DNA of 64,000 bases from positions 1,860,001-1,924,000 of the forward strand of contig NZ_JAASQL010000001.1 of the NCBI RefSeq assembly GCF_011762155.1, written 5' to 3'. The notes beneath the pieces were generated by a model. It worked only from the letters and a program-made list of their open reading frames with translations. It ran no database searches and was not told the DNA's origin. Source of the stretch: Wenyingzhuangia heitensis. Lineage in GTDB: Bacteria > Bacteroidota > Bacteroidia > Flavobacteriales > Flavobacteriaceae. The stretch's first letter is position 1; each line of letters starts with the position of its first letter. Positions 15,946 to 51,744 of the stretch are shown piece by piece. Position numbers and translations under genes: made by a program.

Positions 15946-16019
15946 GGTCTGGTAGTTCAGCTGGTTAGAATACCTGCCTGTCACGCAGGGGGTCGCGGGT
16001 TCGAGTCCCGTCCAGACCG
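15946..16019 (+). tRNA. tRNA-Asp (anticodon GUC)
   Basis: Full cloverleaf: acceptor GGTCTGG pairs with CCAGACC and discriminator G; anticodon stem-loop CTGCCTGTCACGCAG with GTC; T-loop GGGTTCGAGTCCC. CCA is not encoded. The 3' 21 bases are also present at the right end of the island (51665-51685), so this tRNA is the integration target and its 3' end is now supplied by the element. Confidence 0.97.
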
Positions 16020-16025
16020 CAAGAG
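15999..16025 (+). repeat. Left attachment site (att core)
   Basis: 27 bases from the T-arm of tRNA-Asp to just after the tRNA (starts GTTCGAGTCC, ends CCGCAAGAG), identical to 51665-51691. Confidence 0.9.
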
Positions 16026-16042
16026 AAAAGTTAATCTCTTCC

Positions 16043-16078
16043 AAAACCTTATAAACATTATGTTTATAAGGTTTTTTT
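16043..16078 (+). terminator. Terminator after tRNA-Asp, inside the island
   Basis: Stem CCTTATAAACA / TGTTTATAAGG followed by seven T. A near-identical copy (one loop base changed) lies at 51709-51744 outside the island, which is the original chromosomal terminator; the island has brought its own. Confidence 0.85.
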
Positions 16079-16231: not shown

Positions 16232-17479
16232 ATGAAATCATTAACAACTTATTCTATCCTGTTTTGGATATACACCAATCGTGCAAAAAACGGTTATACT
16301 AGTGTATTTGCAAGAATTACAATCAATTCACAAAGAGCAAATATCAGTCTTAAAAAGAAAGTAGAAATATCAAAATGGGATTCTTCAAGAGGTAGATTAA
16401 AAGGTAATACCATTGAAGCTCGACAAATCAATAATTTTTTAGACAAGGAACAAGCTAAAATATCCAAAGCTTATCAAGAATTAGAGTACGAAGAAAAGTT
16501 AATTACTGCACAATTAGTTAAAGCAAGGTATTTAGGTACTGACCAAAAACATAAAACTTTACAAGATTTAGTAACTTATCATAATCAAATTGTAGAGAAA
16601 AAAATCCATAAGGACACTTTACGTAGTTACAAAACTTCTCAGAAATATCTTTTTTTGTATATAAATGAACTACTAAAAACTACCGATTTATATCTTAAGG
16701 AATTGGACTATCAATTTTTGTTAGGCTTTGAAACTTATCTAAGAAGCTACCAACCTACAAACGGTCAGTTAAAAATTCAGAATAATACAGTCATGAAACA
16801 CATTCAAAGACTTCGTAAAATGATAAAGATGGCTGTTGAATTGGAATGGATTAACAAAGACCCTTTTATTAGATTCTCTCCTACTATTGAAAAGAAACAA
16901 AGAGAATATTTAACGGAAAACGAATTAGATAAAATTCAAAACTATCATTCAAACATTCCAAGATTACGTTTGGTAAAAGACCTGTTTTTATTTAGTTGTT
17001 ATACTGGTTTATCATACATCGATATCAGAAATTTATCTCCAGATAATATTGTAAAAGGAATTGATGGGGGTAATTGGATTTTTACCAAAAGACAAAAAAC
17101 AGGAACCTCTGTAAAAGTTCCATTGTTAGAACCTGCTGAAAATTTAATAGAATCATCTACCGAAAACTACCGAAAAATTGATTTCAATAAAATCTTCCCA
17201 ACCATCTCTAATCAAAAGGTAAATAGTTATTTAAAAGAAATTGCAGACGTATGTGGAATTACTAAAAATTTAACCTTTCACATGGCACGTCATACTTTTG
17301 CTACAACAGTTACTTTGTCCAATGGAATTCCTATAGAAACTGTATCAAAAATGTTAGGACATACCAAGCTTACCACGACTCAGATTTACGCAAAAATTGT
17401 AGATAAAAAAGTAAGTGAAGACATGAATATCCTTAAGGAAAAATTCTCTTCCAAGTCTTATATACAAAGAGTTTCATGA
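16232..17479 (+). CDS. int: Tyrosine recombinase/integrase of the island (IntDOT-like)
   Basis: 415 residues: N-terminal arm-binding domain (SILFWIYTNRAKNGYTSVFARITINSQ begins it, about 8-90), SAM-like core-binding domain (about 105-215), and catalytic domain (about 225-405). Catalytic residues: Lys in the RQKTGTSVKVPL strand, HMARH at 350-354 (His350, Arg353, His354), and Tyr386 in QIYAKI. The first Arg of the usual RKHRHY set is replaced by Ser261 (TGLSYIDI), as in IntDOT-type Bacteroidota integrases. It should integrate and excise the island at tRNA-Asp. Confidence 0.93.
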   Translation: MKSLTTYSILFWIYTNRAKNGYTSVFARITINSQRANISLKKKVEISKWDSSRGRLKGNTIEARQINNFLDKEQAKISKAYQELEYEEKLITAQLVKARYLGTDQKHKTLQDLVTYHNQIVEKKIHKDTLRSYKTSQKYLFLYINELLKTTDLYLKELDYQFLLGFETYLRSYQPTNGQLKIQNNTVMKHIQRLRKMIKMAVELEWINKDPFIRFSPTIEKKQREYLTENELDKIQNYHSNIPRLRLVKDLFLFSCYTGLSYIDIRNLSPDNIVKGIDGGNWIFTKRQKTGTSVKVPLLEPAENLIESSTENYRKIDFNKIFPTISNQKVNSYLKEIADVCGITKNLTFHMARHTFATTVTLSNGIPIETVSKMLGHTKLTTTQIYAKIVDKKVSEDMNILKEKFSSKSYIQRVS

Positions 17480-19621: not shown

Positions 19622-20776
19622 ATGAAACATATAGAAAAGATTTTTTCAATTGGTTTGATAATACTTATTTTATCTTCTTGTGCTGTTACAAAAGAGTATG
19701 AAAGAGCAGTTTCAACTAATTCAATAACAACATATGAAAATTATCAAAAAGAGTTCCCCAAAAGTAAGTATAAAGTAGACGTTGAAAAAAGGTTAGCATT
19801 TTTATATGAAGAACAAGCATGGAATAAGGCTGTTTCAAAAAATACAATGTATGGCTATCAAGACTATTTAAGTAAATATCCAAGTGGGAAAAATGTAGAA
19901 AATGCCAGGAAACAAATTGGTAAGATTGAAAAACAAAACGAGATAAATAAGACATGGAAGAGTGCAAAATATGAAAACACCATTGAAAGTTACAATTCAT
20001 TTTTAGGTTTATATCCAAGTTCAAAATATACGTATGATGCTAAATCTAAGATCAGGAGGTTAAAGGAAGAGAATACTTGGAAAATTGCCTCTGACAAAAA
20101 TACAATTAATTCATATTCCGACTATTTGAGAAGTTATCCCTATGGGAAGTATAGTAGTTCTGCAAGTGATAAGATAGGGAAACTAAAAGAGGAAAAATAT
20201 GTTTTGCCTGCTTGGAATGAAACGAAAAGAAAGAATACTTACAATACATACTCGGAGTTTTTTAATAAGTATCCTAATTCATCCTATGCTTATTTAGCAA
20301 AAGACAAGATGATTAGAATTGAACAAAATGATTGGGATAAAGCCAGTCGGATTAACACAATTAAATCTTATAAAGCTTATAATAACAAATATCCATATGG
20401 AGCATATGTTAAAACTTCGGAAAAGAAAATAATTGATTTGGAAGTGGATAAAATTTTCAAAGGTGATTATGGAAAATTACCACCAATGAGTAAAACATCT
20501 TATGGTTATTCTTATAACTCTACAAATGCTATTGAAATATACAACAATACTGCATATACATTGACCATTCGATATAGTGGAGCGGATAGTAAAAAAATCG
20601 TTTTATCCCCTCGACAAAGGACTACAACAACACTTAAAAATGGAAAATATAGGATTGCAGCCTCTGTAAATGCCGCTAATGTTCAAAACTATGCAGGTAA
20701 TGAAAACCTATCAGGTGGAGATTACGGTTCTGAATATTATATTAAAACAGAGTCTTATAAAACTTGGGGATATTAA
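19622..20776 (+). CDS. Lipoprotein with six TPR-like repeats
   Basis: 384 residues with lipobox LSSC (Cys20). Residues about 25-275 consist of six repeats of about 37 residues with the pattern W..A...NT..SY..YL..YP.GKY...A..KI..L (for example WKIASDKNTINSYSDYLRSY), which should form a helical solenoid for protein binding. The last 100 residues change to a beta-rich domain (NAIEIYNNTAYTLTIRYSGA, GKYRIAASV). Located in the envelope, probably periplasm-facing. A cargo gene of unknown role between the replication module and the large operon. Confidence 0.65.
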   Translation: MKHIEKIFSIGLIILILSSCAVTKEYERAVSTNSITTYENYQKEFPKSKYKVDVEKRLAFLYEEQAWNKAVSKNTMYGYQDYLSKYPSGKNVENARKQIGKIEKQNEINKTWKSAKYENTIESYNSFLGLYPSSKYTYDAKSKIRRLKEENTWKIASDKNTINSYSDYLRSYPYGKYSSSASDKIGKLKEEKYVLPAWNETKRKNTYNTYSEFFNKYPNSSYAYLAKDKMIRIEQNDWDKASRINTIKSYKAYNNKYPYGAYVKTSEKKIIDLEVDKIFKGDYGKLPPMSKTSYGYSYNSTNAIEIYNNTAYTLTIRYSGADSKKIVLSPRQRTTTTLKNGKYRIAASVNAANVQNYAGNENLSGGDYGSEYYIKTESYKTWGY

Positions 20777-20966: not shown

Positions 20967-21569
20967 ATGAGACCAATTTTAACAATACTTTTTTACTTAG
21001 TAGTAATTTTAAACGGATTTACTCAAAACGAATTGACTTCACAAGAACATATGAAATTTAAAGGAATACCAATAGATGGTACTTTAAAAGATTTTGTTTT
21101 AAAATTAGAAAAAAAAGGATTTACGTACGAAAAAACAGAAGAGGGTATAGCATGGTTTGGTGGAGAATTTGCATCCTATAATAATTGTATTATAGCGGTT
21201 GTAAGCTTAAAGCAAAAAGATTTAGTATGCAAAACAATTGTTCTATTTCCTGATAAAGACACATGGTCTAGTTTGTCAAATAACTATTTTTTTTTAAAAG
21301 AATTATTAACAGAAAAATATGGAGAACCATCTAAAGTGGTAGAAAAATTCGATTCTTCTATACAACCAAGTGACGATGAGGACAGAATGAGAAAGGTAAA
21401 ATCATACAATTGCAAATACTATACAAACTATATTACAGACAAGGGTAAAATTCAGTTGACTATTTACCATAGTGAAAAAGATTTATACTCTAGTTGTTTT
21501 GTACGATTGTCTTATTACGATAAAATTAATGGTGAAATAATAAGGCAGAAGGCACTTAATGATCTCTAA
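20967..21569 (+). CDS. Secreted hypothetical protein
   Basis: 200 residues with a signal peptide (MRPILTILFYLVVILNGFTQ). The mature part has an alpha/beta pattern (HMKFKGIPIDGTLKDFVLKL, then CIIAVVSLKQKDLVCKTIVLF) that recurs in Bacteroidota secreted proteins of unknown function. Preceded by a 190-base gap with no clear promoter. Nothing in it points to a reaction. Confidence 0.55.
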   Translation: MRPILTILFYLVVILNGFTQNELTSQEHMKFKGIPIDGTLKDFVLKLEKKGFTYEKTEEGIAWFGGEFASYNNCIIAVVSLKQKDLVCKTIVLFPDKDTWSSLSNNYFFLKELLTEKYGEPSKVVEKFDSSIQPSDDEDRMRKVKSYNCKYYTNYITDKGKIQLTIYHSEKDLYSSCFVRLSYYDKINGEIIRQKALNDL

Positions 21570-22013
21570 AAATAAACCCGAATACATAGCCCTTCATAAA
21601 ATTAATAAGAGGTTTGGTACTTACTCAATGTCTTGCTTTTTTAGTTAGCATAATACCTTGTTATTCTAATTCTTTGAGGTAGTTTAGTTTATACAATAGA
21701 AATAGACCCCTGCTAAGCTTAGTCAAAACCGTTGTGTTTTTTCGCTTAACGGTAAGAAAGCCTATATAAATTCTAAAATTGTATCTTATTTTAAATTAAA
21801 TACGTCACTGATCTAAATGAATTAGGATGTTTTTTAAAATCATAATAACAAATGATATTATTTTGTATCAAAAAAATTTTTCATTTAAAATGAGTTACTA
21901 TATTTATACAAAAATTGTTAATCATTAAAAAGTAATCACCTCCTGATTCAAAAGTTTTTAAATTATATATAAAATCATAAATCTATTGATTTTATAGTAT
22001 ATAAATATATTGT
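21570..22013. other. Intergenic region upstream of the eight-gene operon
   Basis: 444 bases of AT-rich DNA without a supported gene. It must contain the promoter of the operon beginning at 22014, but no convincing TTG-N19-TAnnTTTG pair could be fixed. A short inverted sequence AATCTATTGATTTTATAG lies just before the start. Confidence 0.5.
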
Positions 22014-23378
22014 ATGAAATATCAAAAAGAAAAATTACATCTTATAACAGGTGTGGTTTTAATGTTATTTAGCTTATTAGTTTCATGTGCAAACGAAAGA
22101 AAACCAAGAAGAAATTCGACAAACGAGAACAAAGAAAACACATTAATAGAACAAGCTTCTAATTATTCAAACACGCCAAAAACCAATTCTACGGTTACCC
22201 AATTGAATGAACTCCAGGGGGTAAATGTCTTTTTTGAAAACTCTTTAAGTATGAATGGTTATTTAGGGGGAACAAGTTTTAAAACTAATATGTTTCGTAT
22301 TGATGAGTTTGCTTCTGTATATGGGGAAGAGTATCATAGTTATTTTGTAAATACAGAAGAACATCAGATAACTAATTTTTGGAAAAGAATAGAAAAAAAA
22401 CAGATTAAGAAGGGAAATATTTATCAGTCTAATCATGAGTTTATTTTAAATAACGCACTTAATAAAGCATTAAATGATAGGCTTAGTATTGTCATTACAG
22501 ATGGTATCTATTCAGTAAGTAATGGTGATTTAGATATTGTTCCTTTAGATATAGAAAGGGCTTTTAAAGATGTCAATACAAATGATGATATAGCTACATA
22601 TGTCATTAAATTATCTTCAAATTATAATGGGACTTATTATTATGAGAATTGTGAAGATCGAAAACAAACAAAAATCAACCAAGAAAGACCTTACTATATT
22701 TTACTTTTTGGAAAGCCAAACCATATTAATGAGTTTTTAGATGCTCACAAAAAAGATCTTGTTGGCATTAAAGAATTTACAAATTTTACAAATCGTACTA
22801 ATTATAGTTGTGATTATACTGTTTTAACTAAAGGTGAAGAAAAGATTGGTGATTTTGAAAGCATTAGCAGAAGTGTTTTTCCAGTTTTAAATATAAAAGA
22901 TGCTGAAAAAGGAACTCCAAACAGAGCTAGTGGTAAAAATCAACTACAATTTGTGATTGCAATTAATTTAAATGATCTAAGTCTTTCTCAAAACTATTTG
23001 TTAGATAATGATAATTATACGCTTAACAATACCAAAGCTGATTATTCAATAGAATCGATAAAAGCTATAGAGAAATTGGATAAAAATTCAAAAACATACC
23101 ATGAGCTTGAAAAGATTGAAGAAAGACGTAATAAAAAATATTCACATATTATCGTTGTAAACTCATCAGCTAAAATTTATGGAGACATAAATATCAAACT
23201 AAAAAAACAACTTCCTGAATGGATAAAACAAACAGGAACCAATAACGATTGCGATATTGTAGAAAACACTTCTCAAACGATAGCTTTTGATAGGCTTATC
23301 AATGGAATTTCAAAGGCTTATAAAAGAACAACAGATAAAGATGACTATATCGAGTTTTCAATAAATATTAAACACTAA
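22014..23378 (+). CDS. vWA-like lipoprotein, first gene of the novel operon
   Basis: 454 residues with lipobox LVSC (Cys25). After a polar linker, VNVFFENSLSMNGYL (about residue 76) looks like the first strand and MIDAS loop of a von Willebrand A domain (DxSxSM) with Asp replaced by Glu; SIVITDGIYS later matches the Asp-containing second MIDAS strand. The rest is alpha/beta. It should be anchored in a membrane and face the periplasm, where a vWA domain could sense a ligand or hold partners. It is followed after 3 bases by a membrane protein gene, starting a run of eight tightly packed genes. The vWA call is from motif inspection only. Confidence 0.55.
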   Translation: MKYQKEKLHLITGVVLMLFSLLVSCANERKPRRNSTNENKENTLIEQASNYSNTPKTNSTVTQLNELQGVNVFFENSLSMNGYLGGTSFKTNMFRIDEFASVYGEEYHSYFVNTEEHQITNFWKRIEKKQIKKGNIYQSNHEFILNNALNKALNDRLSIVITDGIYSVSNGDLDIVPLDIERAFKDVNTNDDIATYVIKLSSNYNGTYYYENCEDRKQTKINQERPYYILLFGKPNHINEFLDAHKKDLVGIKEFTNFTNRTNYSCDYTVLTKGEEKIGDFESISRSVFPVLNIKDAEKGTPNRASGKNQLQFVIAINLNDLSLSQNYLLDNDNYTLNNTKADYSIESIKAIEKLDKNSKTYHELEKIEERRNKKYSHIIVVNSSAKIYGDINIKLKKQLPEWIKQTGTNNDCDIVENTSQTIAFDRLINGISKAYKRTTDKDDYIEFSINIKH

Positions 23379-23381
23379 ATT

Positions 23382-23810
23382 ATGAATGATTTTTTTGCAC
23401 TCTTTTTTGAGTTTCTTTTTGATTATGATGCTAATCAGGATTTATTAGATGCTGTTTTTAATAATGGTGATTATAAAATGATTGGTTTGTCAATAATTCT
23501 TATATCAATTATAAGTCCTTTTCTTTTTTATAAAGTATGGGACCCAATACAAAAACAACTCTTAAAATATGTTATAACACTTTTAATAGTAGGAATTATT
23601 CAATTTGTTGTAACAAACTATGTGTTAAATATCAATAATGATATTTTAAATTTAATAGGAAACTATAGTTCAGAATCATACCATATGGATCCAGACTTAT
23701 TCATAATGACGATGGGGGCTATCTCAATGATATATGTGATCATAATATCTTTTTTAACCTCTAGGGTTATAAAAAAAATGAGTATCAACAATAAATACAA
23801 TCCTTTTTAA
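23382..23810 (+). CDS. Small multi-pass membrane protein
   Basis: 142 residues with three clear membrane helices: IGLSIILISIISPFLFYKV, YVITLLIVGIIQFVVTNYVL and FIMTMGAISMIYVIIISFLT. No known family recognised. The gene lies 3 bases after the lipoprotein and 2 before the tubulin-like gene, so it likely belongs to the same complex, perhaps linking the cytoplasmic NTPases to the membrane. Confidence 0.6.
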   Translation: MNDFFALFFEFLFDYDANQDLLDAVFNNGDYKMIGLSIILISIISPFLFYKVWDPIQKQLLKYVITLLIVGIIQFVVTNYVLNINNDILNLIGNYSSESYHMDPDLFIMTMGAISMIYVIIISFLTSRVIKKMSINNKYNPF

Positions 23811-23812
23811 AT

Positions 23813-25285
23813 ATGGCTAAATTATATGTTTTCGGAATAGGAGGTACAGGTTCAAGAGTCATAAAGTCTTTAGCAATGCTATTAGCTTCTGGGGTAAAGT
23901 TAAATGGAAAGTTTGATACTGTTGTTCCTTTGATAGTAGATCCAGATACGGCTAATGGAGATTTAAATAGAACAATTGATATTTTAATTAAATATCAAAA
24001 TATATACAATGAAATAGGGACTGATAATAATTTTTTTGGAACTAAAATTAAAACCTTAAATCAATTATTAGAAGATACGACTCCTACGGTTTCGGATCAT
24101 TTTAAATTTGGATTAACCAATACAGGAGAAAAATTCAACGAATTTATTGGTTATAATGGATTAGATGAAGAGAATAGAGCTTTAATAGATTTACTTTTTA
24201 GTGAAAATAATATAGCAGCTGATATGACTGTGGGTTTTAAAGGAAATCCAAACATAGGAAGTGTAGTTTTAAATAAATTCACAGAGTCAGATGAGTATAA
24301 AAACTTTTGTAATACATTTAATGAAGGAGATGCCGTTTTTATTGTAAGTTCTATTTTTGGAGGTACTGGAGCTTCAGGGTTTCCATTGCTACTAAAAAAT
24401 TTAAGAGAGAATGATGCTGCTATTCATAATTCAAACTTTATTAGTCAGTGTAAGATTGGAGCTATTAGTTATTTACCTTATTTTAAAGTAGCCGAAAGTT
24501 CAGGAACACCTGAAAGTGAAATTGATTCTAAAACATTTTATAGCAAAGCAAAAGCAGCTTTAAATTATTATGAACATTCCATATTTAATAAAAAAGATTC
24601 ATTAAGTGCTTTTTATTATTTAGGAGATCATTCTAATAATATAATGCCCTATGCAGAAGGAAAATCTTCTCAAAAAAACAATGCACATTTTTTAGAACTA
24701 ACAGGAGCTTTATCTGTTGTTGACTTTGTTAAAAACATAGACACTTTTAATAACAATAGCTCAATTATAAAAGAGTTTGGTATTGAGGAAGATTCTAAAG
24801 AAAAATTAGTCTTTAAAAACTTAGGAGAATGGTCTAAAGATACATTAATGCTTCCTATTGCTAAATTTGTATTATTTGATAAGTTTCTAACAAAATCTTT
24901 AAAAAATTTAAAAGAGTCTAAAGGAAGTTTTAAAGGAGAAAATGGAGTAGAATTAGCTTTTTATAACAAAGATTTTTACAACTTATACCTGTCTAAGTTT
25001 TTAAATTATTTTTCTGAATGGATAGATGAAATGGATGACAACGATATTTCTTTTGCTCCGTTTCATGACAATCAAGAGCATAAATATTTATTAGATTTTA
25101 TAAAAGAAACAGAAGTTTCTAGGGGAGGTTTCCTTAAAACAAATAATGCAAATGGAGACATTATTATAAAAGAATTACATAAAATTATAAGTGAAAAAAA
25201 GTTTGATAATGAAACGGTACCATCAAGATTTATAAAATCGTTTGATGTAGTTCTAGAGAATCAAATTAATACTATAATACACTAA
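23813..25285 (+). CDS. Tubulin/FtsZ-like GTPase
   Basis: 490 residues, cytoplasmic. It opens with a nucleotide-binding strand and glycine loop LYVFGIGGTGSRVIKS (loop at 8-13) and carries the tubulin signature IFGGTGASGFP at 181-191, which corresponds to GGGTGTG of FtsZ and binds GTP phosphates. Spacing of the two loops fits 'tubulin-like' bacterial proteins distant from FtsZ. It lacks the FtsZ C-terminal tail. It could polymerise. The neighbours (Hsp70/actin-like ATPase and ZorAB-like motor) make a cell-division role unlikely. Confidence 0.68.
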   Translation: MAKLYVFGIGGTGSRVIKSLAMLLASGVKLNGKFDTVVPLIVDPDTANGDLNRTIDILIKYQNIYNEIGTDNNFFGTKIKTLNQLLEDTTPTVSDHFKFGLTNTGEKFNEFIGYNGLDEENRALIDLLFSENNIAADMTVGFKGNPNIGSVVLNKFTESDEYKNFCNTFNEGDAVFIVSSIFGGTGASGFPLLLKNLRENDAAIHNSNFISQCKIGAISYLPYFKVAESSGTPESEIDSKTFYSKAKAALNYYEHSIFNKKDSLSAFYYLGDHSNNIMPYAEGKSSQKNNAHFLELTGALSVVDFVKNIDTFNNNSSIIKEFGIEEDSKEKLVFKNLGEWSKDTLMLPIAKFVLFDKFLTKSLKNLKESKGSFKGENGVELAFYNKDFYNLYLSKFLNYFSEWIDEMDDNDISFAPFHDNQEHKYLLDFIKETEVSRGGFLKTNNANGDIIIKELHKIISEKKFDNETVPSRFIKSFDVVLENQINTIIH

Positions 25286-25289
25286 AGCT

Positions 25290-28200
25290 ATGGGGAAAAA
25301 AGTTTTTAGAATACATAATGAAGGAGCTAATAGTGTTGATTGGTTTTCTTCAGATAATATTAATTCATCTGTCATTGAGTCAATCAAAACAGATGGAGGT
25401 AACGGTCAATCATTACCTACGTCAATCCCAAGTCCATTTGCTAGAATAGACCTTGTAAGAACTGCTTTTAAGACATTAGGAACTACTGGAGAATTAGATG
25501 GAGTAACAAAAAATGGAATTTGTGTAGCAACAGACAATCACAAATTAGTATCCGATGCATTAGATATTGGGCAGATTTTTTTCAATTTTGACAAACATCA
25601 AAAAGATTTACAACTTATTTCATGGTCAAAAAAAGATAGTATTGAAAAACTACTTAATTCTGGAGATCCTAATCATGTACATCTAGGTAAAACTTTAGAG
25701 TTGTTTTTAAAACAAGATAGCAAACAATACAACTTTAATGAACTTGAAGAAATTGTAATTCTTAAATACAAGTATAAGGTTATAGGTGGAACTTCTCCTA
25801 GAACACTTTTCTTCGCAAGTCCTAATCAAATAGAAACCAGTATTAATTTTGGTCAAGACACCATGTTAGACCAAAAATTATTACCACTATATAAAAGAGA
25901 AAAAAATTACATAAAATATTTATTTGCACTTAGCAAACAATCAAAATTTGATTTTTATTTTCCTGAATTAAACAGTTATCTTTTAAAAACATGGGAACAG
26001 TTAAGATCTTTTAATGCTCAATTATTTGATGAATTAATGTCAATGGACATTACTACTTATCTGGAATCTTTAAGCCCTGTTTATTTTTCAAACAATACAG
26101 GCCACCCTCTTAGTATTATTGAAAATATTTCTATAAAACAATTTAAAAGAAATATAATAGCACTAGCAAAAGAAAGTGATTTTGTAATTGACTCTATCAA
26201 AGAAGACATAAAACCTTTAGTTTTACCTACAGAGCATTTTGCTTATAAGTTAAAGTATACAGAAGATTTTTGGAATCCAAAAACGGAAGTGCCTTATTTT
26301 GATCCAACACCTGTTTTAGAAAGAACGTTACCGGAGCAAGGAGATAAATATCCTTACTTAACTATGAATGATTTTCTTGCGGATGAAATTATAAAATTGC
26401 CATATAAAATAGATACATCTAAATTTGTTTCTTTTGGCAGTGAAGACTATTTATTGCCATTAAAAGATACTTTCTTTGATTATTTTACAACGGAAGATTT
26501 ATTAACAAAAAAACTGTTGGCTATAAAAGAATTAGCGGGTGAAAGTGTAGAGGTAAGTTTAAAAATTCCAATTAAAAAAGGATACATTAGTTACAGAAAA
26601 ATTTATCACACAAAACAATCCGATGATATTTTGGTGTCAAATGATAAAGGGGTAATCAAAGAAGCTTCATTCGCTTTGGCAATATACCCATTCACCAAAG
26701 GTGAAAATATTCAACAGCAATATACAATAGGTATTGCCAATCCAGCGTATGATTTAAATAGTATAGGAGTAGAAATATACAATGATGAAGCTAATAAAAA
26801 ATTAAAACCGCTAACGTCTCAAAAGAGAAGTCAAAATATTTGTGAAACTATTCAAACAGTAGTGAGTGAATCTTTTGATAGGGTAAAAGTATCTCTAGAT
26901 CAATTCTATGGTATGCTAATTCCTGCTTTTGTAAATATAGAAGCTAATGGTGGTGATGTATATACCTTTTCAATAGATTTAGGTACTACAAATACTCATA
27001 TTGAATATAAAATAGAGGGAAAAGGAAGTTCAAAACCTTTTGATATCTTAAATAATGAACAACAAATAGCGTTTAGTTTCCCTTTTGAATTGTCTTATAG
27101 ATCTGATATTTTAGGTAGGATTAAAGACAGTCAAAATTATTTAAAGCAAGAAATTATACCCGTTTCTATTGGAAACGACTCTCTTTATAAAGTACCGTTT
27201 AGAACCAGTTTATTAGAAAATAAAAACATTAATTACAACAAACCTTCTTTTCTTTTTGCTGATGCAAATATTGCTTTTGATTATGAAAAAATACCATTAA
27301 GACCTTATTTAAAGTCGATTACTAACTTAAAATGGTCTACAGAAACAAATAATGAAAAACAAATAGCTCATTATATTGAAGAATTGTTACAACTATGTAA
27401 AAACAAAGTAACAGTTAACAATGGAAACTTAAAGGAGACTAAAGTAATATGGTTTTTCCCAGTGAGTATGACTACAAATCATTTAAGAAAATTTAGAAAT
27501 ATTTGGGTTGAAAAATTTGAAAAAGTATTCAATAAAGATGCAGAAAACAATTTATCTGACTTTCCTGAAAGCGTAGCCCCTTTTTATTATTTTAAGGAAG
27601 TTGAATCAATCAAACATTCTGCAAAACCTTCTGTTTCAATTGATATTGGTGGAGGAACAACGGATATAATGATTTTTGAGAATAATAAACCACAAGTTAT
27701 ATCTTCCTTTAATTTTGCAGGGAATTCTATTTTTGGAAATGGATTTAATGGGAATATAAATTCAAATGGTTTTGTACAAAAATATAAAGAGAGCATTTCA
27801 AAAATATTTGAAGAGAATAAGTTAACAGATGAGCAAGTAATATTTGATAGAATTTACAATGAATATCAGTCTTCTTCAGATTTTATAAATTTCTTATTCT
27901 CTTTAATCGACAATCAGAAAGTCATTGATAAACATTTAGATTTAGATTTTAACAAAATGTTGTCTAATGATGAGGACTTTAAGATAATATTCCTAACATT
28001 CTATTCTTCTATTATTTATCACATTGCTCAATTGATGAAAATGGATGGATACGATATTCCCCGAAACATTGTTTTTAGTGGAACAGGATCTAAGACGGTT
28101 AAGATTTTAGATAATAGCAAAAAGTTAGATACACTAACAGATGTTTTCTCTAAAATTTTCGAGAAAGTTTATGGAGAAGAAGTGGATCAGATGACTCTAA

Positions 28201-28658
28201 AATCAACAGAAAATCCTAAACAAGTAACTTGTAAAGGTGGTTTCTATATTGATAGTGATTTTACTATCAAACACAGTAAATTAACCAAAATAAATCTGGG
28301 TGCTTTTGATAAAAATATTATTCAAAATAAATTTTTAGATGATGATTCAACTGTTTTTTATAAAGATTTAAATGATGATTTATATAAAGACGTTATTTTA
28401 AATGTAAATCAATTTTATAAGTTTTTAGAGGAAATAATAAGAGAATTAGATTTAAAGAATGAAATAGGCTTGTCTAATAACTCAATTGAGATGTTTAATA
28501 AGTTAAAAAATCATGATCAGTTAGATCATATTATAAATGGGGTACAGTTATTAAAAAAAGATACAATAGATACTGATGTAATAGATCAAACACTTTTCTT
28601 TTACCCTATAATTGGATTAATTTATGAAATTTCATCTGAATTAAACGATTTAAATTAG
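25290..28658 (+). CDS. Giant Hsp70/actin-like ATPase
   Basis: 1122 residues. A long N-terminal part (1-550) of no known family is followed by an actin-superfamily ATPase: phosphate-1 loop FSIDLGTTNTH (about 560-570), phosphate-2 loop SIDIGGGTTD at 783-792, and the adenosine motif IVFSGTGSKTVK near 927. These are the motifs of DnaK and actin. No peptide-binding domain of classical Hsp70 is visible. Size and layout recall the SrfB family of large Hsp70-like proteins, but this is an impression to be tested. It starts 5 bases after the tubulin-like gene. With it, the operon holds both an actin-like and a tubulin-like NTPase. Confidence 0.75.
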   Translation: MGKKVFRIHNEGANSVDWFSSDNINSSVIESIKTDGGNGQSLPTSIPSPFARIDLVRTAFKTLGTTGELDGVTKNGICVATDNHKLVSDALDIGQIFFNFDKHQKDLQLISWSKKDSIEKLLNSGDPNHVHLGKTLELFLKQDSKQYNFNELEEIVILKYKYKVIGGTSPRTLFFASPNQIETSINFGQDTMLDQKLLPLYKREKNYIKYLFALSKQSKFDFYFPELNSYLLKTWEQLRSFNAQLFDELMSMDITTYLESLSPVYFSNNTGHPLSIIENISIKQFKRNIIALAKESDFVIDSIKEDIKPLVLPTEHFAYKLKYTEDFWNPKTEVPYFDPTPVLERTLPEQGDKYPYLTMNDFLADEIIKLPYKIDTSKFVSFGSEDYLLPLKDTFFDYFTTEDLLTKKLLAIKELAGESVEVSLKIPIKKGYISYRKIYHTKQSDDILVSNDKGVIKEASFALAIYPFTKGENIQQQYTIGIANPAYDLNSIGVEIYNDEANKKLKPLTSQKRSQNICETIQTVVSESFDRVKVSLDQFYGMLIPAFVNIEANGGDVYTFSIDLGTTNTHIEYKIEGKGSSKPFDILNNEQQIAFSFPFELSYRSDILGRIKDSQNYLKQEIIPVSIGNDSLYKVPFRTSLLENKNINYNKPSFLFADANIAFDYEKIPLRPYLKSITNLKWSTETNNEKQIAHYIEELLQLCKNKVTVNNGNLKETKVIWFFPVSMTTNHLRKFRNIWVEKFEKVFNKDAENNLSDFPESVAPFYYFKEVESIKHSAKPSVSIDIGGGTTDIMIFENNKPQVISSFNFAGNSIFGNGFNGNINSNGFVQKYKESISKIFEENKLTDEQVIFDRIYNEYQSSSDFINFLFSLIDNQKVIDKHLDLDFNKMLSNDEDFKIIFLTFYSSIIYHIAQLMKMDGYDIPRNIVFSGTGSKTVKILDNSKKLDTLTDVFSKIFEKVYGEEVDQMTLKSTENPKQVTCKGGFYIDSDFTIKHSKLTKINLGAFDKNIIQNKFLDDDSTVFYKDLNDDLYKDVILNVNQFYKFLEEIIRELDLKNEIGLSNNSIEMFNKLKNHDQLDHIINGVQLLKKDTIDTDVIDQTLFFYPIIGLIYEISSELNDLN

Positions 28659-28663
28659 TAAAT

Positions 28664-29305
28664 ATGGTGACATTAAATACAACAAATATTACAATTATTT
28701 TGTCTGCTTCTCTTGTAGTGGCTATGGTTATAATCTTTTTTTTAATGCTAAAGAACAAGAAATTAAAATTAGAAATTACAGATATAAAAGAAAAGCTTAG
28801 AAAAATAAAAAAAGAGTTGGAGTTAAGAAATTTTAGACCTCGAGAACCTAGGAGTAAGCAAATTTTAAAAGAAGAAAGTGTTCTTGTTAAAAACGAGACT
28901 CCAAAGATTCAAGAAGTAGCGAAAGATGATGTAATTTCCGAAACCATTGAATTAAATGTGTCAAGTAAAAGTATTGACAATACAAGAACTGTGATTTATC
29001 TACCTGGACCTTTTGAAGATTCTAAGTTTGCTGTAGAAGAGGCAAAAGATATTAAAAAAGAAAATACTTTATACAAAATAACACTAGAGAATAAAACGGC
29101 AACTATTGGAGTCTTAGAAATCCTTTCAGATGTAGATTTTTCAAGAGCTTTAAGTTCTTCAAAACAATATCTGGAAACTGCATGTAGCTATAAAAATGCA
29201 TTCTCTATATCATCTAAAAAAATTAAACAAGTTGAACCAGGTAAAGTAGAATTAAGAGGTACAGATTGGGTTGTCTTAAATAAAATTAAAATTGAATTTC
29301 AATAA
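28664..29305 (+). CDS. Bitopic membrane protein with coiled coil
   Basis: 213 residues: N-terminal membrane helix (ITIILSASLVVAMVIIFFLM), a basic coiled coil (KLKLEITDIKEKLRKIKKEL), a low-complexity linker, and a C-terminal globular domain of about 110 residues (TRTVIYLPGPFEDSKF to the end). The topology puts the C-terminal domain in the cytoplasm if the positive-inside rule holds (KNKK after the helix). No family recognised. It sits between the Hsp70-like and ZorA-like genes and may tether one to the other. Confidence 0.6.
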   Translation: MVTLNTTNITIILSASLVVAMVIIFFLMLKNKKLKLEITDIKEKLRKIKKELELRNFRPREPRSKQILKEESVLVKNETPKIQEVAKDDVISETIELNVSSKSIDNTRTVIYLPGPFEDSKFAVEEAKDIKKENTLYKITLENKTATIGVLEILSDVDFSRALSSSKQYLETACSYKNAFSISSKKIKQVEPGKVELRGTDWVVLNKIKIEFQ

Positions 29306-29313
29306 AATAAAAA

Positions 29314-30993
29314 ATGCTAGTTATTTTAATAGAGAATATAAAAGGTTTCAACTTATTACAAAAAACAGAATTGGTTTTTGTAGGTTTAATTATAGCTTAT
29401 CAAATATATCTATTATTTAGATTAATAAATCTGGTAAGTATTTTTAAAAATATATTTAAAATTTTGCCCGTAGTAAATAATATTAATGGTGATGTTAAGA
29501 ATGAAGGAAGTGTAGGTGATTACTTATCAATTACAGAAGCAACAAACCCTACGTTCCAAAGAATTTTAGATGCTATTAACAACTATTTAAATAAAAATAA
29601 AGGGGCTACAGTAGAATTTAATATTCTTAAAGATATTGTCGATAGAAATGTTGACATAGACGAAGAAGATATCAATAATAGAATCCCAGCTCCTTTATAT
29701 GCAGGATTAGCAGCAACCATGTTGGGAATTATTTTTGGTTTATTCAACATGGATTTTGATATAAACACAGAGTCATCGGATTTAATTAACAATATTGAAC
29801 CCTTAATATTTGGTGTTAAAATTGCAATGATTGCAAGTGTAACGGGATTAATAATAACTACGTTTTTTTCAGTATTTCTGTTTAAAAAATCCAAAACCCA
29901 AATGGACATTGGTAGAAATGATTTTTTAGGGTTGTTACAAAGAGATTTGTTGCCAAGAATGGAACAGTCTAAATTACCAGAGGTAAGTATCCTTTCTCGT
30001 AAATTAGATCATTTTGCATTAAATACTATAAGTTCTATAGATAAACTGGATACTGTTGTTGCTAACTCAATCTCAGTTATAGAAAATGAAAAGAAATTAA
30101 TTGAAGAAATTAAGTCATTAGATATAACAAAGGTTTCTAGTTCAAATTTAGATATTTTCAACAAATTAAAAGGAATGATGGATTCCTTTGATAAGTTTGC
30201 TATATACTATACTACGCTTAATAAATCTCTTGCTACTACAGATAAATTGCTAGTCAATCTTGACAAATTTGTAAATGCTACAGAAAATGTCAATGCCATT
30301 TTAGAATCAATAAAAAATCAAATTGTTACAACGGAAAAAGCAACAAACTTTTTTAATCAACACATCAAATCTTTTGAAAGGTATCAAGAAGCTATAAATG
30401 AAGCAATTGCATCAACAGACTCTAAAATGAGTGATGCAATTATTAAGCTAGGTGAATCGGTAAGTAATCAGATGGATGTTTTTAATGTTGCCGTGTCTAG
30501 TTATGATGAAAAATTAAAACTAGCTTTTGAAAATTCTACTAAAAATTTCACAGAGGTATTAAGATCACAAGCTGAACAAAACGGTATTTTAATCAAAAAC
30601 TTAACAGAAAAAGTTACAATTACACTAGAAGATAGCTATAAGAATCAATTAAGAACCAATGAAAAGTTAATTAGCAATTTTTCTGATGAAATATCAAATA
30701 CATTAAAGAATAGCTTACATAGTTTTGAGCAATTTAAAGAATTAAATAAACTTGATGAACTTGCAATCATTAAGAATGAGATTCAAACAATGAATACCAA
30801 TATAAGGACCAGTCAAGATGAAATGGCTGACTTTATAAAAAACACATTGGATGCAGAAAAAAAGGCAAATACAATTACGCTTAAGCCAAAGAAAACTTTA
30901 TTAGAAAAAATCAATGTATACGTGCAATTTGTGACCTACATATTAGTTATTTCTATTTGTATTTGGTTTCTTATTAAAGAACTAAAAGCATGA
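29314..30993 (+). CDS. ZorA-like MotA/TolQ/ExbB channel protein with long helical tail
   Basis: 559 residues. Membrane helices at about 20-42, 127-145 (PLYAGLAATMLGIIFGLF) and 165-190 (FGVKIAMIASVTGLIITTFF); the last two, rich in Gly/Ala/Thr, are the conserved MotA/ExbB core that forms the ion path. Then follow about 340 residues of almost continuous helix, as in ZorA of Zorya defence, and, unlike ZorA, a further helix at the C-terminus (YVQFVTYILVISICIWFLI). The next gene, overlapping by 4 bases, encodes the matching MotB/ZorB partner. The pair should form an ion-driven rotary motor in the inner membrane. Confidence 0.75.
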   Translation: MLVILIENIKGFNLLQKTELVFVGLIIAYQIYLLFRLINLVSIFKNIFKILPVVNNINGDVKNEGSVGDYLSITEATNPTFQRILDAINNYLNKNKGATVEFNILKDIVDRNVDIDEEDINNRIPAPLYAGLAATMLGIIFGLFNMDFDINTESSDLINNIEPLIFGVKIAMIASVTGLIITTFFSVFLFKKSKTQMDIGRNDFLGLLQRDLLPRMEQSKLPEVSILSRKLDHFALNTISSIDKLDTVVANSISVIENEKKLIEEIKSLDITKVSSSNLDIFNKLKGMMDSFDKFAIYYTTLNKSLATTDKLLVNLDKFVNATENVNAILESIKNQIVTTEKATNFFNQHIKSFERYQEAINEAIASTDSKMSDAIIKLGESVSNQMDVFNVAVSSYDEKLKLAFENSTKNFTEVLRSQAEQNGILIKNLTEKVTITLEDSYKNQLRTNEKLISNFSDEISNTLKNSLHSFEQFKELNKLDELAIIKNEIQTMNTNIRTSQDEMADFIKNTLDAEKKANTITLKPKKTLLEKINVYVQFVTYILVISICIWFLIKELKA

Positions 30994-31634
30994 AAAAAAG
31001 TAGCTACTTTTGGGTGGGATACTCTGATTTAATGACAAGTATGTTTTTTTTAATGCTTGTTTTATATGTGGTAACCTTTACTCAGTTAAAAACTGAAATT
31101 CAGAAGCTAATTGTGACTCAAACAATGGTGGATAAAATAAAAGAAATTCAGAATGCTTTAAATTCTTTAGATGAAAAATATTTCGAATTTGACAAAGAAA
31201 GTAAAAGGTACAAGTTAAAAATTGATGCTAGTTTTAGACCAGGGAGTAAGAATATTTTTGATATCCCGACAGATAAAAGAGAGGAGCTTTTTGATGCAGG
31301 GAATGAATTGTATAACAAATTAGAATCAATTATAAAGCAAAATAAAAATGTAGATTATCTTTTAATTATTGAAGGAAATACGGCTAGGTACCAGAATAAT
31401 TATTTAGAAAATCCTGATAGAGGTTATGAGTTGAGTTATCAAAGAGCTTTAGCGTTAAATAATTTTTGGAAATCTAAAGGAATAGACTTTATAAAATTAG
31501 CACCTCAATGCGAAATTATTTTAGCGGGTAGTGGTTATTTTGGTCAGTCTCGTGATAATATCATTGAAAGTAATAACAAACGTTTTACCATTCAAATTAC
31601 TTCTAAAATAGGTAAATTAATAGAAAATGATTAA
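30990..31634 (+). CDS. ZorB-like MotB/OmpA stator protein
   Basis: 214 residues. A single membrane helix begins right after the key Asp13 (SDLMTSMFFLMLVLYVVTF), the ion-carrying position of MotB/TolR/ZorB, followed by a linker and an OmpA-like peptidoglycan-binding domain (LLIIEGNTAR, YELSYQRALALNNFWKSKGI, NNKRFTIQI). Together with the ZorA-like protein it forms an ion-driven complex fixed to the cell wall. The gene overlaps its neighbours on both sides (4 and 8 bases), showing tight co-translation. Confidence 0.82.
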   Translation: MKKSSYFWVGYSDLMTSMFFLMLVLYVVTFTQLKTEIQKLIVTQTMVDKIKEIQNALNSLDEKYFEFDKESKRYKLKIDASFRPGSKNIFDIPTDKREELFDAGNELYNKLESIIKQNKNVDYLLIIEGNTARYQNNYLENPDRGYELSYQRALALNNFWKSKGIDFIKLAPQCEIILAGSGYFGQSRDNIIESNNKRFTIQITSKIGKLIEND

Positions 31635-33030
31635 TAAGAGAATTGTAACCTTTACATTTTTAATCATATTAACAACCATTGTTACTTCATGTGTGAATTG
31701 TTCTAGGTCTGCAAGATCTAAATTAAGAAACACAGATGAAAACCATCAGATTCATAATACGAATAGAGAAAAAAAAGAAGTCAAAAAACAAACAGTAAAT
31801 AATTTACCTTCATTGTTTCAAAAACTTCAAAAAAGTGTTTTTATGATTTATGGTGTAGATAGCCATAATGAAATAATTCAAGGGAGTGGTTTTGTGATTG
31901 ATAAATCTGGAATTTGTATAACAAATTATCATGTACTTAAAAACTTAAATAAATGTAAGATTAAATTATATGATGGTAAAACATATCATATAACAGAAAT
32001 CATTCAAGCTAGTAATCAAGAGGCTTTAGATTATGTGATTTTTAAAATAAATACAACTTTCAATCATAGTTTAGAAATTAGCAAACAAAACTCTCAAATA
32101 GGAGATGATGTGTTTGCGATTGGAAGCCCACGTGGTCTCGAAAATACACTAACAAAAGGAGCTATATCTCAGTTCAGAAACAATAAATACATTCAAATTG
32201 ATGCAACTATTGATCATGGTAGTTCTGGAGGTCCATTATTTAATATGAAAGGTGAAGTGATAGGAATAACAACTTCTGGAATTGAAGGATCAGACTTAAA
32301 TTTTGCTATTGATATCTCAAAAGTTCCAATTAAAAATATATTCAGAGAAAAAAAAGAGAAGTTAAACATAACTTTTGATAATCATACTTCTACTACAGGT
32401 CAAATAATACATCATAGTTTTTACACATTGTCTTATGTTGAAAAATATGAACAACCAGAATGGGTTGCATATAAGTTAATCCCTCAGTATTTGGTTAAAA
32501 AAGTAGAACGTAGGAATCGTTTTAAAATTGACAGAGCAGTAAAAACAGGTTCTGCTACTTTAACTGATTATAAGGGTTCAGGTTATGATCGAGGTCATTT
32601 AGCTCCTGCTGGTGCGATGTCATTCAGTAGTGTTGCAATGGAGGATAGTTTTTATATGAGTAATATGTCTCCACAAGTACCAGGTTTTAATAGAGGAATT
32701 TGGAAAAGTTTAGAAAGTAAAGTAAGGTATTGGACTTCATCATCCGATAGTTTGTATGTTGTTAGTGGTCCTATTCTAAAAAATATATCAAAAACAATCG
32801 GTGAAAATAAAGTAGGAGTCCCAAATTATTACTATAAAGTAATTGTAAAGTTCAAAAACAACAAAACTCAAGCTTGTGCCTTTTTATTACCCAATAAAAA
32901 AAGCAACAAAAAGCTAAATGATTACCTGTGTACAATTGATGAAATTGAAGAATTATCAGGGATAGATTTTAATGTGAACTTTCCTAATAGTTTAGAAAAT
33001 GAATTAGAAAAAAAATATGATTTTTTCTAA
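31627..33030 (+). CDS. Lipoprotein fusion: trypsin-like serine protease plus NUC1 nuclease
   Basis: 467 residues. Lipobox VTSC (Cys22) predicts an exported, lipid-anchored protein. Residues about 60-240 are an HtrA-like (S1C) protease domain with complete triad: His102 (TNYHVL), Asp135 (EALDYVIF), Ser200 (DHGSSGGPLF); there is no PDZ domain. Residues about 260-465 are a DNA/RNA non-specific endonuclease (NUC1): DRGH at 321-324 with catalytic His324, and metal-binding Asn355 in the FNRGIWKSLE block. It is the last gene of the operon and looks like its effector, acting in the periplasm. Protease control of the nuclease is inferred from the fusion. Confidence 0.82.
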   Translation: MINKRIVTFTFLIILTTIVTSCVNCSRSARSKLRNTDENHQIHNTNREKKEVKKQTVNNLPSLFQKLQKSVFMIYGVDSHNEIIQGSGFVIDKSGICITNYHVLKNLNKCKIKLYDGKTYHITEIIQASNQEALDYVIFKINTTFNHSLEISKQNSQIGDDVFAIGSPRGLENTLTKGAISQFRNNKYIQIDATIDHGSSGGPLFNMKGEVIGITTSGIEGSDLNFAIDISKVPIKNIFREKKEKLNITFDNHTSTTGQIIHHSFYTLSYVEKYEQPEWVAYKLIPQYLVKKVERRNRFKIDRAVKTGSATLTDYKGSGYDRGHLAPAGAMSFSSVAMEDSFYMSNMSPQVPGFNRGIWKSLESKVRYWTSSSDSLYVVSGPILKNISKTIGENKVGVPNYYYKVIVKFKNNKTQACAFLLPNKKSNKKLNDYLCTIDEIEELSGIDFNVNFPNSLENELEKKYDFF

Positions 33031-33090
33031 GTAAACAATAACCTTTGTAAAGGTTATGAGAGTTTATAATCAATTAAAAATAGTGTTATA

Positions 33091-33414
33091 ATGTTAAAAG
33101 AAATAAAAGATACGGTAATAATAAAAGTAATTTTAGTTATATTATTATTCATGTGTTTGTTAAACATGCCCTATGGATTTTATCAACTGGTTCGTTTTGT
33201 TGCATTAGTAGGTTTTGGTTTTTTGGCATACAAATCGAACGAAACCAATAAAAGTACTGATATGTTTATTTATGGAGGGCTTGCCTTACTTTTTCAACCT
33301 TTTTTTAAAATCTCATTAGGTAGAGAATTATGGAATATTTTAGATGTAATCATTGGTATAGGACTTTTGATCAGTCTGTTTTTTGAGAGATCAAAACTAA
33401 AAAAAAGCAAATAA
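33091..33414 (+). CDS. Small membrane protein, DUF6804-like
   Basis: 107 residues with about four membrane helices (VILVILLFMCLLNM, YQLVRFVALVGFGFLAY, FIYGGLALLFQPFF, DVIIGIGLLISLFF). The MPYGFYQLVRF motif resembles the DUF6804 family of small membrane proteins. Placed 60 bases after the big operon with no terminator between, so it could be co-transcribed; relation to the system is uncertain. Confidence 0.55.
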   Translation: MLKEIKDTVIIKVILVILLFMCLLNMPYGFYQLVRFVALVGFGFLAYKSNETNKSTDMFIYGGLALLFQPFFKISLGRELWNILDVIIGIGLLISLFFERSKLKKSK

Positions 33415-33712: not shown

Positions 33713-33750
33713 TAATTGATAAATTAAAAAAAGACTAACATCTGTCTACT

Positions 33751-33804
33751 TGTCATTTCGAGTAAAATACGAAACGTAGTGCATTATTTTGTATCGAGAA
33801 ATAG
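33751..33804. repeat. 54-base intergenic repeat, copy 1
   Basis: Begins TGTCATTTCGAGT and ends TGTATCGAGAAATAG. About nine in ten bases equal copy 2 at 33901-33954. Inner AAAAT/ATTTT can pair, so a hairpin is likely. Confidence 0.65.
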
Positions 33805-33900
33805 GTTTAATTGCAGTTAGGTCTTTTTACTACTCATCTTTTTACTTTCTACCCAAAGTCTTTTACTATAAATCTTGATACCTACTACTTTCTACCTCCC

Positions 33901-33954
33901 TGTCATTTCGAGTGAAATACGCAACGCAGTGAAGTATTTTGTATCGAGAAATAG
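33901..33954. repeat. 54-base intergenic repeat, copy 2
   Basis: Same ends as copy 1; inner AAATAC/GTATTT pairing is retained although the bases differ slightly. The sequence type (CATTTCGAGTGAAATACGCA) looks like a dispersed flavobacterial repeat. Confidence 0.65.
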
Positions 33955-34248
33955 TTCTATTATTAAAATGTTTAATTTTATCTATTATTCATCCTTCTAC
34001 CTTCTACCCATAGTCCTTTTACCAACTACCAGATAGCTACTACCAAAAATGCACCCCACCCACACAAATCATAAAAACCATGTCAATTATCAACAAAACC
34101 AATCAATCTATTGGAATGACTTCGTATATTTAACTAAAATTGTGGTCAGTTGTATAATTCCATGTTTATTTTGTCAAAACATTATTAAGAATAAGGTTTA
34201 GATTAAGAACTAAGTAAAAATGTACAACTGAGAAAAACAGGAATAAAG

Positions 34249-39199: not shown

Positions 39200-39229
39200 T
39201 TTTAAAAAAAGTTAGAGAGAAAGAGAAAA

Positions 39230-43025: not shown

Positions 43026-43028
43026 ATT

Positions 43029-51664: not shown

Positions 51665-51691
51665 GTTCGAGTCCCGTCCAGACCGCAAGAG
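51665..51691 (+). repeat. Right attachment site (att core)
   Basis: Exact 27-base copy of the tRNA-Asp 3' end and following bases (15999-16025). The upstream part of a tRNA is missing here, so this is a remnant and not a second tRNA. Confidence 0.9.
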
Positions 51692-51708
51692 TTTATGTAA
51701 ATTCTTCT

Positions 51709-51744
51709 AAAACCTTATAAACATAATGTTTATAAGGTTTTTTT
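51709..51744 (+). terminator. Original tRNA-Asp terminator, now outside the island
   Basis: Hairpin CCTTATAAACA / TGTTTATAAGG with T-run, one base different from the copy at 16043-16078. Confidence 0.7.

Follow-up and report, generated by a model that had tools for sequence, protein, structure and literature searches.

In the 64,000-nucleotide stretch of Wenyingzhuangia heitensis DNA analyzed here (the window; contig NZ_JAASQL010000001.1, positions 1,860,001 to 1,924,000), a tubulin/FtsZ-like GTPase (TUB) and an actin/Hsp70-superfamily ATPase (SRF) are encoded side by side at the center of an operon of eight genes that spans 22014-33030. The operon also encodes two Zorya-like motor subunits (ZORA and ZORB) and a protease-nuclease. 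We put at about even the chance that the TUB-SRF pair is the nucleoside triphosphatase (NTPase) core of an envelope-spanning, motor-driven, Zorya-like immune system of Bacteroidota with periplasmic effectors.

The original prediction, made from the letters of this DNA, had singled out the two NTPase genes. Both genes are real and lie on the same (+) strand with 4 bases between them, as it described. Their adjacency stands, but the proper unit is the whole operon rather than the interval 23813-28658. The pairing had also been called rare; inside its own family it is not, though counted per genome it is patchy. A scan of one genome collection gave 344 relatives among candidate stretches, of which 80 were kept, and SRF follows TUB in 91/93 TUB loci, with a median gap of 5 nucleotides. 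A lipoprotein gene (VWL) lies upstream in 90/93 of these loci, and a small membrane protein gene (TM4) is present in 86/93. Among the 81 loci with at least 8.3 kilobases of downstream sequence, the coiled-coil protein CC213 was found in 76, ZORA in 73, and ZORB in 69.

Tubulin-like and actin-like partners

The window TUB matched the Pfam families Tubulin (expectation value [E] of 1.4e-5) and Tubulin_2 (3.1e-5), both below the curated cut-offs. Kinship with Tubulin_2 had been proposed, and it holds for the relatives better than for the window protein: PF13809 matched 41/44 TUB homologues at E<=0.01 (best, 4.5e-8), but the window protein scored 23.8 bits against a cut-off of 27. Because the relatives match while the window protein falls under the cut-off, we regard TUB as kin of Tubulin_2 but divergent. 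A six-frame search of its own genome with PF13809 gave no match at E<=0.001. Judged by sequence, TUB is a divergent relative of FtsZl1/Tubulin_2. FtsZl1 was described in 2010 by Makarova and Koonin as a family with vWA and OmpA-type neighbors, and its alignment includes a Bacteroides caccae member (PMC2875224).

The predicted GTPase signature was present as FGGTGASG at residues 182 to 189. Within it, G183, G184, T185, G186, and A187 were invariant in all 44 aligned homologues, as were the N-terminal G10, G11, G13, and R15. An AlphaFold2 model of TUB (predicted local distance difference test [pLDDT], 82.8) aligned from residue 1 to ~355 with CetZ, FtsZ, and tubulin (Z, 15.4 to 14.2). The best rows were CetZ 3zid (Z 15.4; root mean square deviation [rmsd] of 4.7 over 219 residues) and 1ofu (Z 15.3; rmsd of 3.0 over 194). 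Elements past residue ~270, among them the T7 loop through which GTP hydrolysis would be tied to polymerization, were not confidently matched to T7/H8 of FtsZ in this model. A profile search of the PDB with TUB was marginal, with CetZ 3zid again the best row (E of 0.058).

For SRF, Pfam matches to FtsA (E of 1.3e-4) and other actin-superfamily models at residues 774 to 903 were below cut-off. The phosphate loops of the actin superfamily, which the original prediction had read from the letters, were confirmed: the phosphate-1, phosphate-2, and adenosine motifs are all present. Residues D563, G565, T566, N568, D785, G787, G788, D792, S930, and G931 are kept in 44/44 homologues, K935 in 43, and G789 in 42. 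In the AlphaFold2 model (pLDDT, 87.5), residues 555 to 996 aligned to MreB (4czk, at residues 556 to 990; Z 12.8, rmsd of 3.5 over 281 residues), MamK, Hsp70, and actin. Model predictions thus give TUB a tubulin/FtsZ fold over residues 1 to ~355 and SRF an actin/Hsp70 fold over residues 555 to 996. Models lacking these folds had been named as what would refute the pairing; each predicted model shows its fold (best Z, 15.4 and 12.8).

The ~550 residues ahead of the actin domain were described as being of unknown sequence and indeed gave no Pfam match, and a fold search with the whole SRF model listed the actin domain only. SrfB is a large protein with an actin/Hsp70-like signature, and it had been put forward as the family of SRF. 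We rejected this on Pfam evidence, as PF07520 did not match the window protein at E<=1 and matched 1/44 homologues, at an E of 0.0042. PF07520 matched 0/198 genomes of the class, with no control genome giving a signal either.

By a simple scan, the window TUB and SRF have neither a signal nor a hydrophobic segment of membrane length. The same crude scan found at least one hydrophobic segment in 42/83 TUB and 29/84 SRF homologues, and a cytoplasmic place for the pair is therefore something we infer.

One account of the pair is compatible with the immune reading and dispenses with filaments. TUB and SRF would be non-polymerizing switches, with SRF serving as a chaperone of the Hsp70 type for the loading or unloading of TUB or the effectors. 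We rate this a little short of even. The unmatched TUB elements past residue ~270 and the ~550 extra N-terminal residues of SRF would suit it, as would the lack of clear T6-H7 elements in FtsZl1 proteins, for which doubt over polymer elements was also raised in 2010 (PMC2875224). Comparison of folds cuts both ways. For SRF, the filament formers MreB and MamK rank highest (Z 12.8 to 12.6), and for TUB, CetZ and FtsZ do (Z 15.4 to 15.3). Z gaps of less than 1 are ties, though, and DnaK and BiP (Z 12.2 to 11.5) trail the best MreB hit by no more than 1.5 Z. The invariance of TUB N289, E295, and E321 in 44/44 homologues counts against this account.

Motor subunits and downstream enzymes

The motor expected in the same operon was found. 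ZORA matched the PADLOC model ZorA1 (E of 7.7e-7), and ZORB matched ZorB1 (2.9e-10), as did 35/35 ZORB proteins scanned against the ZorB1 models. Both also matched solved subunits of 8VVN, the Shewanella type I ZorAB structure (PMC11890865). A profile of 44 ZORA proteins found ZorA (8vvn_C) at an E of 2.5e-7 in the channel helices, and the tail gave a weak coiled-coil match only. A profile of 35 ZORB proteins found ZorB (8vvn_B) over residues 4 to 206 at 1.3e-14. The membrane-helix aspartate D13 of ZORB is kept in 35/35, as are S149 and R152, the latter being the arginine of the peptidoglycan-site motif LSxxRA. The OmpA Pfam match in the window ZORB was weak (E of 0.062). Zorya defense needs ion flow, peptidoglycan binding by ZorB, and the ZorA tail (PMC11890865). 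In 39/70 ZORA proteins, that of the window among them, a hydrophobic segment lies in the last 45 residues, and the tail may therefore return to the membrane. At seven loci (L036, L043, L065, L071, L082, L089, and L096), a gene for a protein of ~600 amino acids follows ZORA and, wherever the contig is long enough to show it, precedes ZORB. Six of the seven copies have five hydrophobic segments, and the L065 copy had no Pfam match.

The remaining fixed members appear to be envelope proteins. VWL carries a lipobox-like LVSC at residues 22 to 25, with C25 invariant in a 44-row alignment. Its ENSxSM and (S/T)DGIYS motifs align to the DxSxSM and TDG of vWA domains. Comparison of VWL with a vWA profile by hhalign gave an E of 5e-4 and a probability of 31%, against 0.08 to 0.38% for five other operon profiles; the Pfam vWA model matched none of 44 VWL homologues. 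A hydrophobicity scan showed three hydrophobic segments in 74/80 TM4 homologues and a single one near the N terminus of CC213. Profile searches of the PDB with VWL and CC213 returned marginal, chance, or coiled-coil rows only.

Behind the motor, the window operon encodes one chain that matched both Trypsin_2 (E of 1.9e-22) and Endonuclease_NS (1.2e-52) and has a lipobox-like VTSC at residues 19 to 22. We collected 128 downstream co-directional genes, loci without ZORB included, and scanned 125 of them (3 encoding fewer than 70 amino acids were omitted). Pfam identified trypsin-like (20), retropepsin-like aspartyl (14), and transglutaminase-like (8) proteases, together with Exo_endo_phos (11), SNase (10), and Endonuclease_NS (8) nucleases. 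Upstream, 218 genes were collected, 171 passed the filter, and 120, none from loci after L075, were scanned in the same way. No such protease or nuclease family was among the 25 commonest of the 161 families found there, a list in which rare families of one or two members could be hidden. Same-strand profiles applied to the 61 motor loci with 1.5 kilobases of room found at least one such enzyme at 44 loci: 39 had a protease, 29 had a nuclease, and 24 had the two together. The same profiles found a protease or nuclease upstream at 1/60 loci.

These enzymes change often. When the classes were placed on a quick tree of 61 tubulins, at least 9 changes were counted for the proteases (38 rows) and at least 9 for the nucleases (27 rows), whereas three classes need just two changes if each arose once. 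With three protease folds and three nuclease folds at one position, the recurring feature is "protease and nuclease, probably exported" rather than one enzyme family. A simple pattern found lipobox-like starts in 13/20 SERP, 9/18 ASPP, and 2/8 TGP proteases and in 5/15 EEP, 11/15 SNASE, and 7/9 NUCA nucleases. From these starts, the effectors are probably exported.

Distribution and genomic setting

TUB was found in 8/199 genomes of the family and 13/395 of the phylum, its own genome included. A match in genome G083 (E of 3e-4, L017) was left out of the family count, as there is no such operon there. SRF extending beyond a short actin-domain part was present in 11 of the 13 TUB genomes of the phylum set; in the other 382, no such SRF was among the matches listed, which covered profile positions 753 to 889 only and extended to an E of about 1.2e-4. 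Genome G472 has TUB without SRF: its tubulin is distant, and the first 9 kilobases of the contig hold no partner families. Genome G575 (L167; G575:C38:38000-50000), given as 13% contaminated, holds a decayed operon with a stop in TUB, no SRF, and split small membrane protein and ZORB genes; the motor and aspartyl-protease genes are still recognizable. Three IMG/VR contigs gave a match.

Loci lacking ZORB include L015, L016, L100, L105, and L106, along with the distant L098 and L099. The first five retain VWL, a small membrane protein, TUB, SRF, and a CC213-type protein, behind which lies a membrane coiled-coil protein (L015 and L016) or a protein of ~430 to 470 amino acids (L100, L105, and L106). 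The distant TUB-SRF loci come from other families of the phylum; L098 (L098:990-13107) has TerD and OmpA-domain genes downstream, and L099 (L099:2328-14484) has a MotA_ExbB-like gene. In the 84-locus set, which omits L017 as well as L011 to L014 (these four lie on the contigs of L018, L022, L037, and L065), the operon flanks hold a histidine kinase in 12 loci and a response regulator in 13, often together and close upstream. Examples are L019, L020, L037, L046, L065, and L085.

The operon had been assigned to a mobile element, and both tRNA-Asp repeats and a tyrosine integrase were found. They bound an element of 35.7 kilobases (15999-51744). On the same element are the type I restriction genes HsdM-HsdS and HsdR (35386-46373). 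Two GmrSD-type genes, the first overlapping the second, lie between HsdS and HsdR (PADLOC: HEC-06/Orf5-like and SspE-like). At this tRNA, three congeners (L159, L161, and L162) have a related integrase module followed by different genes, and L161 looks like a remnant. The genes behind the L162 module resembled a restriction system by eye alone; one was tried and matched no solved structure, and we make no such claim. A gene for 1486 amino acids flanking the element is too paralogous for an empty-site comparison.

Two further features lie near the operon. Between it and the integration module is a lipoprotein gene with YfiO/TPR-like repeats (19622-20776). Behind it, at 33734-33959, are two imperfect 76-nucleotide direct repeats (82%), 150 nucleotides apart, with no long reading frame there.

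Table 1. Genes of the operon and landmarks of the element that carries it, in window coordinates
Feature	Description	Coordinates	Strand	Evidence
VWL	Lipoprotein with vWA-like N-terminal domain, 454 amino acids	22014..23378	+	
TM4	Small membrane protein, 142 amino acids, three hydrophobic segments	23382..23810	+	
TUB	Tubulin/FtsZ-like GTPase, 490 amino acids	23813..25285	+	Pfam, alignment, AlphaFold2 model
SRF	Actin/Hsp70-superfamily ATPase, 1122 amino acids, actin domain 555-996	25290..28658	+	Pfam, alignment, model
CC213	Membrane-anchored coiled-coil protein, 213 amino acids, conserved C-terminal domain	28664..29305	+	
ZORA	ZorA/MotA-like motor subunit, 559 amino acids, long helical tail, hydrophobic C-terminal segment	29314..30993	+	
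ZORB	ZorB/MotB-like motor subunit, 214 amino acids, OmpA-like periplasmic domain	30990..31634	+	
Protease-nuclease	Trypsin-like protease (86-214) fused to Endonuclease_NS/NucA-type nuclease (250-453), 467 amino acids, predicted exported lipoprotein	31627..33030	+	
DUF6804 protein	Membrane protein, 107 amino acids, possible accessory	33091..33414	+	Pfam 3.5e-34
Integrase	Tyrosine integrase	16232..17479	+	Phage_integrase 3.2e-18
Left attachment repeat	3' end of tRNA-Asp (15946-16020)	15999..16078	+	
Right attachment repeat	89% identical over 80 nucleotides, first 27 nucleotides identical	51665..51744	+	

Interpretation and relation to known systems

The presence of a motor, a lipoprotein, and enzymes with export-type starts leads us to place the action at the envelope. 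In our working model, ZorB would anchor the motor to peptidoglycan, and a phage breaching the envelope would cause an ion flow that turns or strains the motor. Under the motor, in the cytoplasm, TUB and SRF would act as nucleotide-dependent assembly switches, either a filament or a cap, that set a threshold. The membrane proteins would then relay the signal outward until it reaches the lipoprotein and the exported protease. This protease would free or activate the exported nuclease so that incoming DNA is cut in the periplasm. Triggering of the motor by envelope damage, nucleotide-dependent assembly of TUB and SRF on its cytoplasmic side, and a periplasmic output are what we propose by analogy with Zorya. 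The immune role, the direction of signaling, and filament formation are likewise points that we infer.

In favor of the immune reading we count the conserved operon, the coupling of SRF to TUB across genomes, the Zorya-like motor with its intact membrane aspartate, the often exchanged downstream enzymes, the patchy distribution, and the restriction and GmrSD-type genes on the same element. Several observations count against it. The motor is not universal, ZorB being absent from 12 of the 81 loci with room, and 17/61 motor loci have no recognized protease or nuclease beside ZorB. The protease and nuclease profiles were built from those same downstream genes, the Pfam tally of 125 genes being independent of them. 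Export is judged from signal-like starts, and the lipobox-like motif occurs in just part of each class, partly because starts were called mechanically. The histidine of the peptidoglycan site of Zorya ZorB (GHT) is replaced in ZORB by N, M, Q, Y, or S. The loci are not all independent, since five locus pairs have tubulins at least 90% identical. Defense company comes from one window, where PADLOC models matched 4/10 further genes scanned, and PADLOC (2023) has no model matching TUB or SRF at E<=1. A stronger form of the immune reading would make this a new immunity class in which TUB and SRF assemble jointly on a rotary motor powered by ions and set off proteases and nucleases in the periplasm, destroying phage DNA during injection, before it reaches the cytoplasm. 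We hold this form to be tentative and, on balance, doubtful.

Somewhat improbable, in our view, is a non-immune envelope machine, motor powered and NTPase regulated, that remodels membranes or vesicles or processes surface DNA or protein for nutrition. A membrane-remodeling role was proposed for FtsZl1 operons that include vWA and OmpA-type genes (PMC2875224), and exported nucleases (SNase, EEP, and NucA) accompanied by proteases would also suit scavenging. The flanking histidine kinase and response regulator genes point the same way. However, the patchy distribution, the integrative element with restriction genes, and the repeated swapping of unrelated nuclease folds fit conflict better than housekeeping.

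The swapping of nuclease cargo at one locus would also be expected of interbacterial antagonism, with nuclease and protease lipoproteins passed as toxins to neighbors by a motor-driven device. Small membrane or lipoprotein genes that could encode immunity proteins recur beside some effectors: DUF6804 genes are in the fetched stretch of 11/84 loci, several directly behind effector genes, and family f19 is at 5 loci. Such genes are missing from most loci, though, many effectors have signal-like starts of their own, and no delivery domain was among the Pfam matches listed, making this explanation very unlikely. That the pair is a TubZ/ParM-type partition or positioning system of the mobile element is scarcely credible: partition systems include tubulin-like and actin-like NTPases, but no DNA-binding adaptor was recognized in the fixed set, the other members are membrane or lipoprotein-like, and the window SRF matched 1/72,556 plasmid records (a 1.77-megabase Prevotella replicon) and the window TUB no phage record.

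The operon shares with Zorya the ZorA-like channel helices and long helical tail, the ZorB-like subunit with a membrane aspartate and an OmpA-like domain, and a nuclease partner. It differs in that none of the 10 window genes at 20967-33414 matched ZorC, -D, -E, -F, or -G at E<=1, a result for the window only. It adds the tubulin-like, actin-like, and vWA-like proteins and two further membrane proteins, and ZORA often has the C-terminal hydrophobic segment. Its nucleases and proteases often have export-type starts, whereas Zorya nucleases are thought to be recruited by the cytoplasmic ZorA rod (PMC11890865). FtsZl1 loci pair a divergent FtsZ-like GTPase with genes of the vWA and OmpA types, which the vWA-like domain of VWL and the OmpA-like domain of ZORB may parallel; kinases and GTPases are given as partners there. 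The main text of that paper contains no occurrence of hsp70, motb, mota, exbb, nuclease, protease, or peptidase, and its passages on actin name no actin-like partner, although its supplementary tables may list part of the set (PMC2875224).

The GTPase-centric conflict systems of Kaur et al. (2020) are also similar in that they place tubulin or HSP70 close to the membrane along with vWA proteins, and the peptidase-NucA systems, a separate system there, have trypsin fused or linked to a NucA nuclease (PMC7159879). In the GTPase-centric systems, however, tubulin and HSP70 belong to separate, non-overlapping themes with TRAFAC GTPases and GAP1, and "mota" has no occurrence in the main text (PMC7159879). 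No P-loop GTPase was among the general Pfam matches of the window operon, for which no dedicated DO-GTPase or GAP1 model was run. In the open-licence literature of PubMed Central, we found no paper on an operon of tubulin, actin, and ZorAB. Taken together, the operon joins a Zorya-like motor, an FtsZl1-related GTPase, an actin-like ATPase, and probably exported effectors in a new combination; its site of action is probably new as well.

One fixed genetic unit here ties together tubulin, actin, and ion-driven motors, which are normally studied apart. The gene set occurs in cultured bacteria, e.g., Polaribacter, Maribacter, Flavobacterium, Chitinophaga, Parabacteroides, and Prevotella. The role of the FtsZl1-related tubulin, predicted but unexplained in 2010, thereby becomes directly testable. 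The operon also points to Zorya-type motors being able to drive effectors beyond the cytoplasm. If this is true, relatives of actin and tubulin would act in one bacterial machine.

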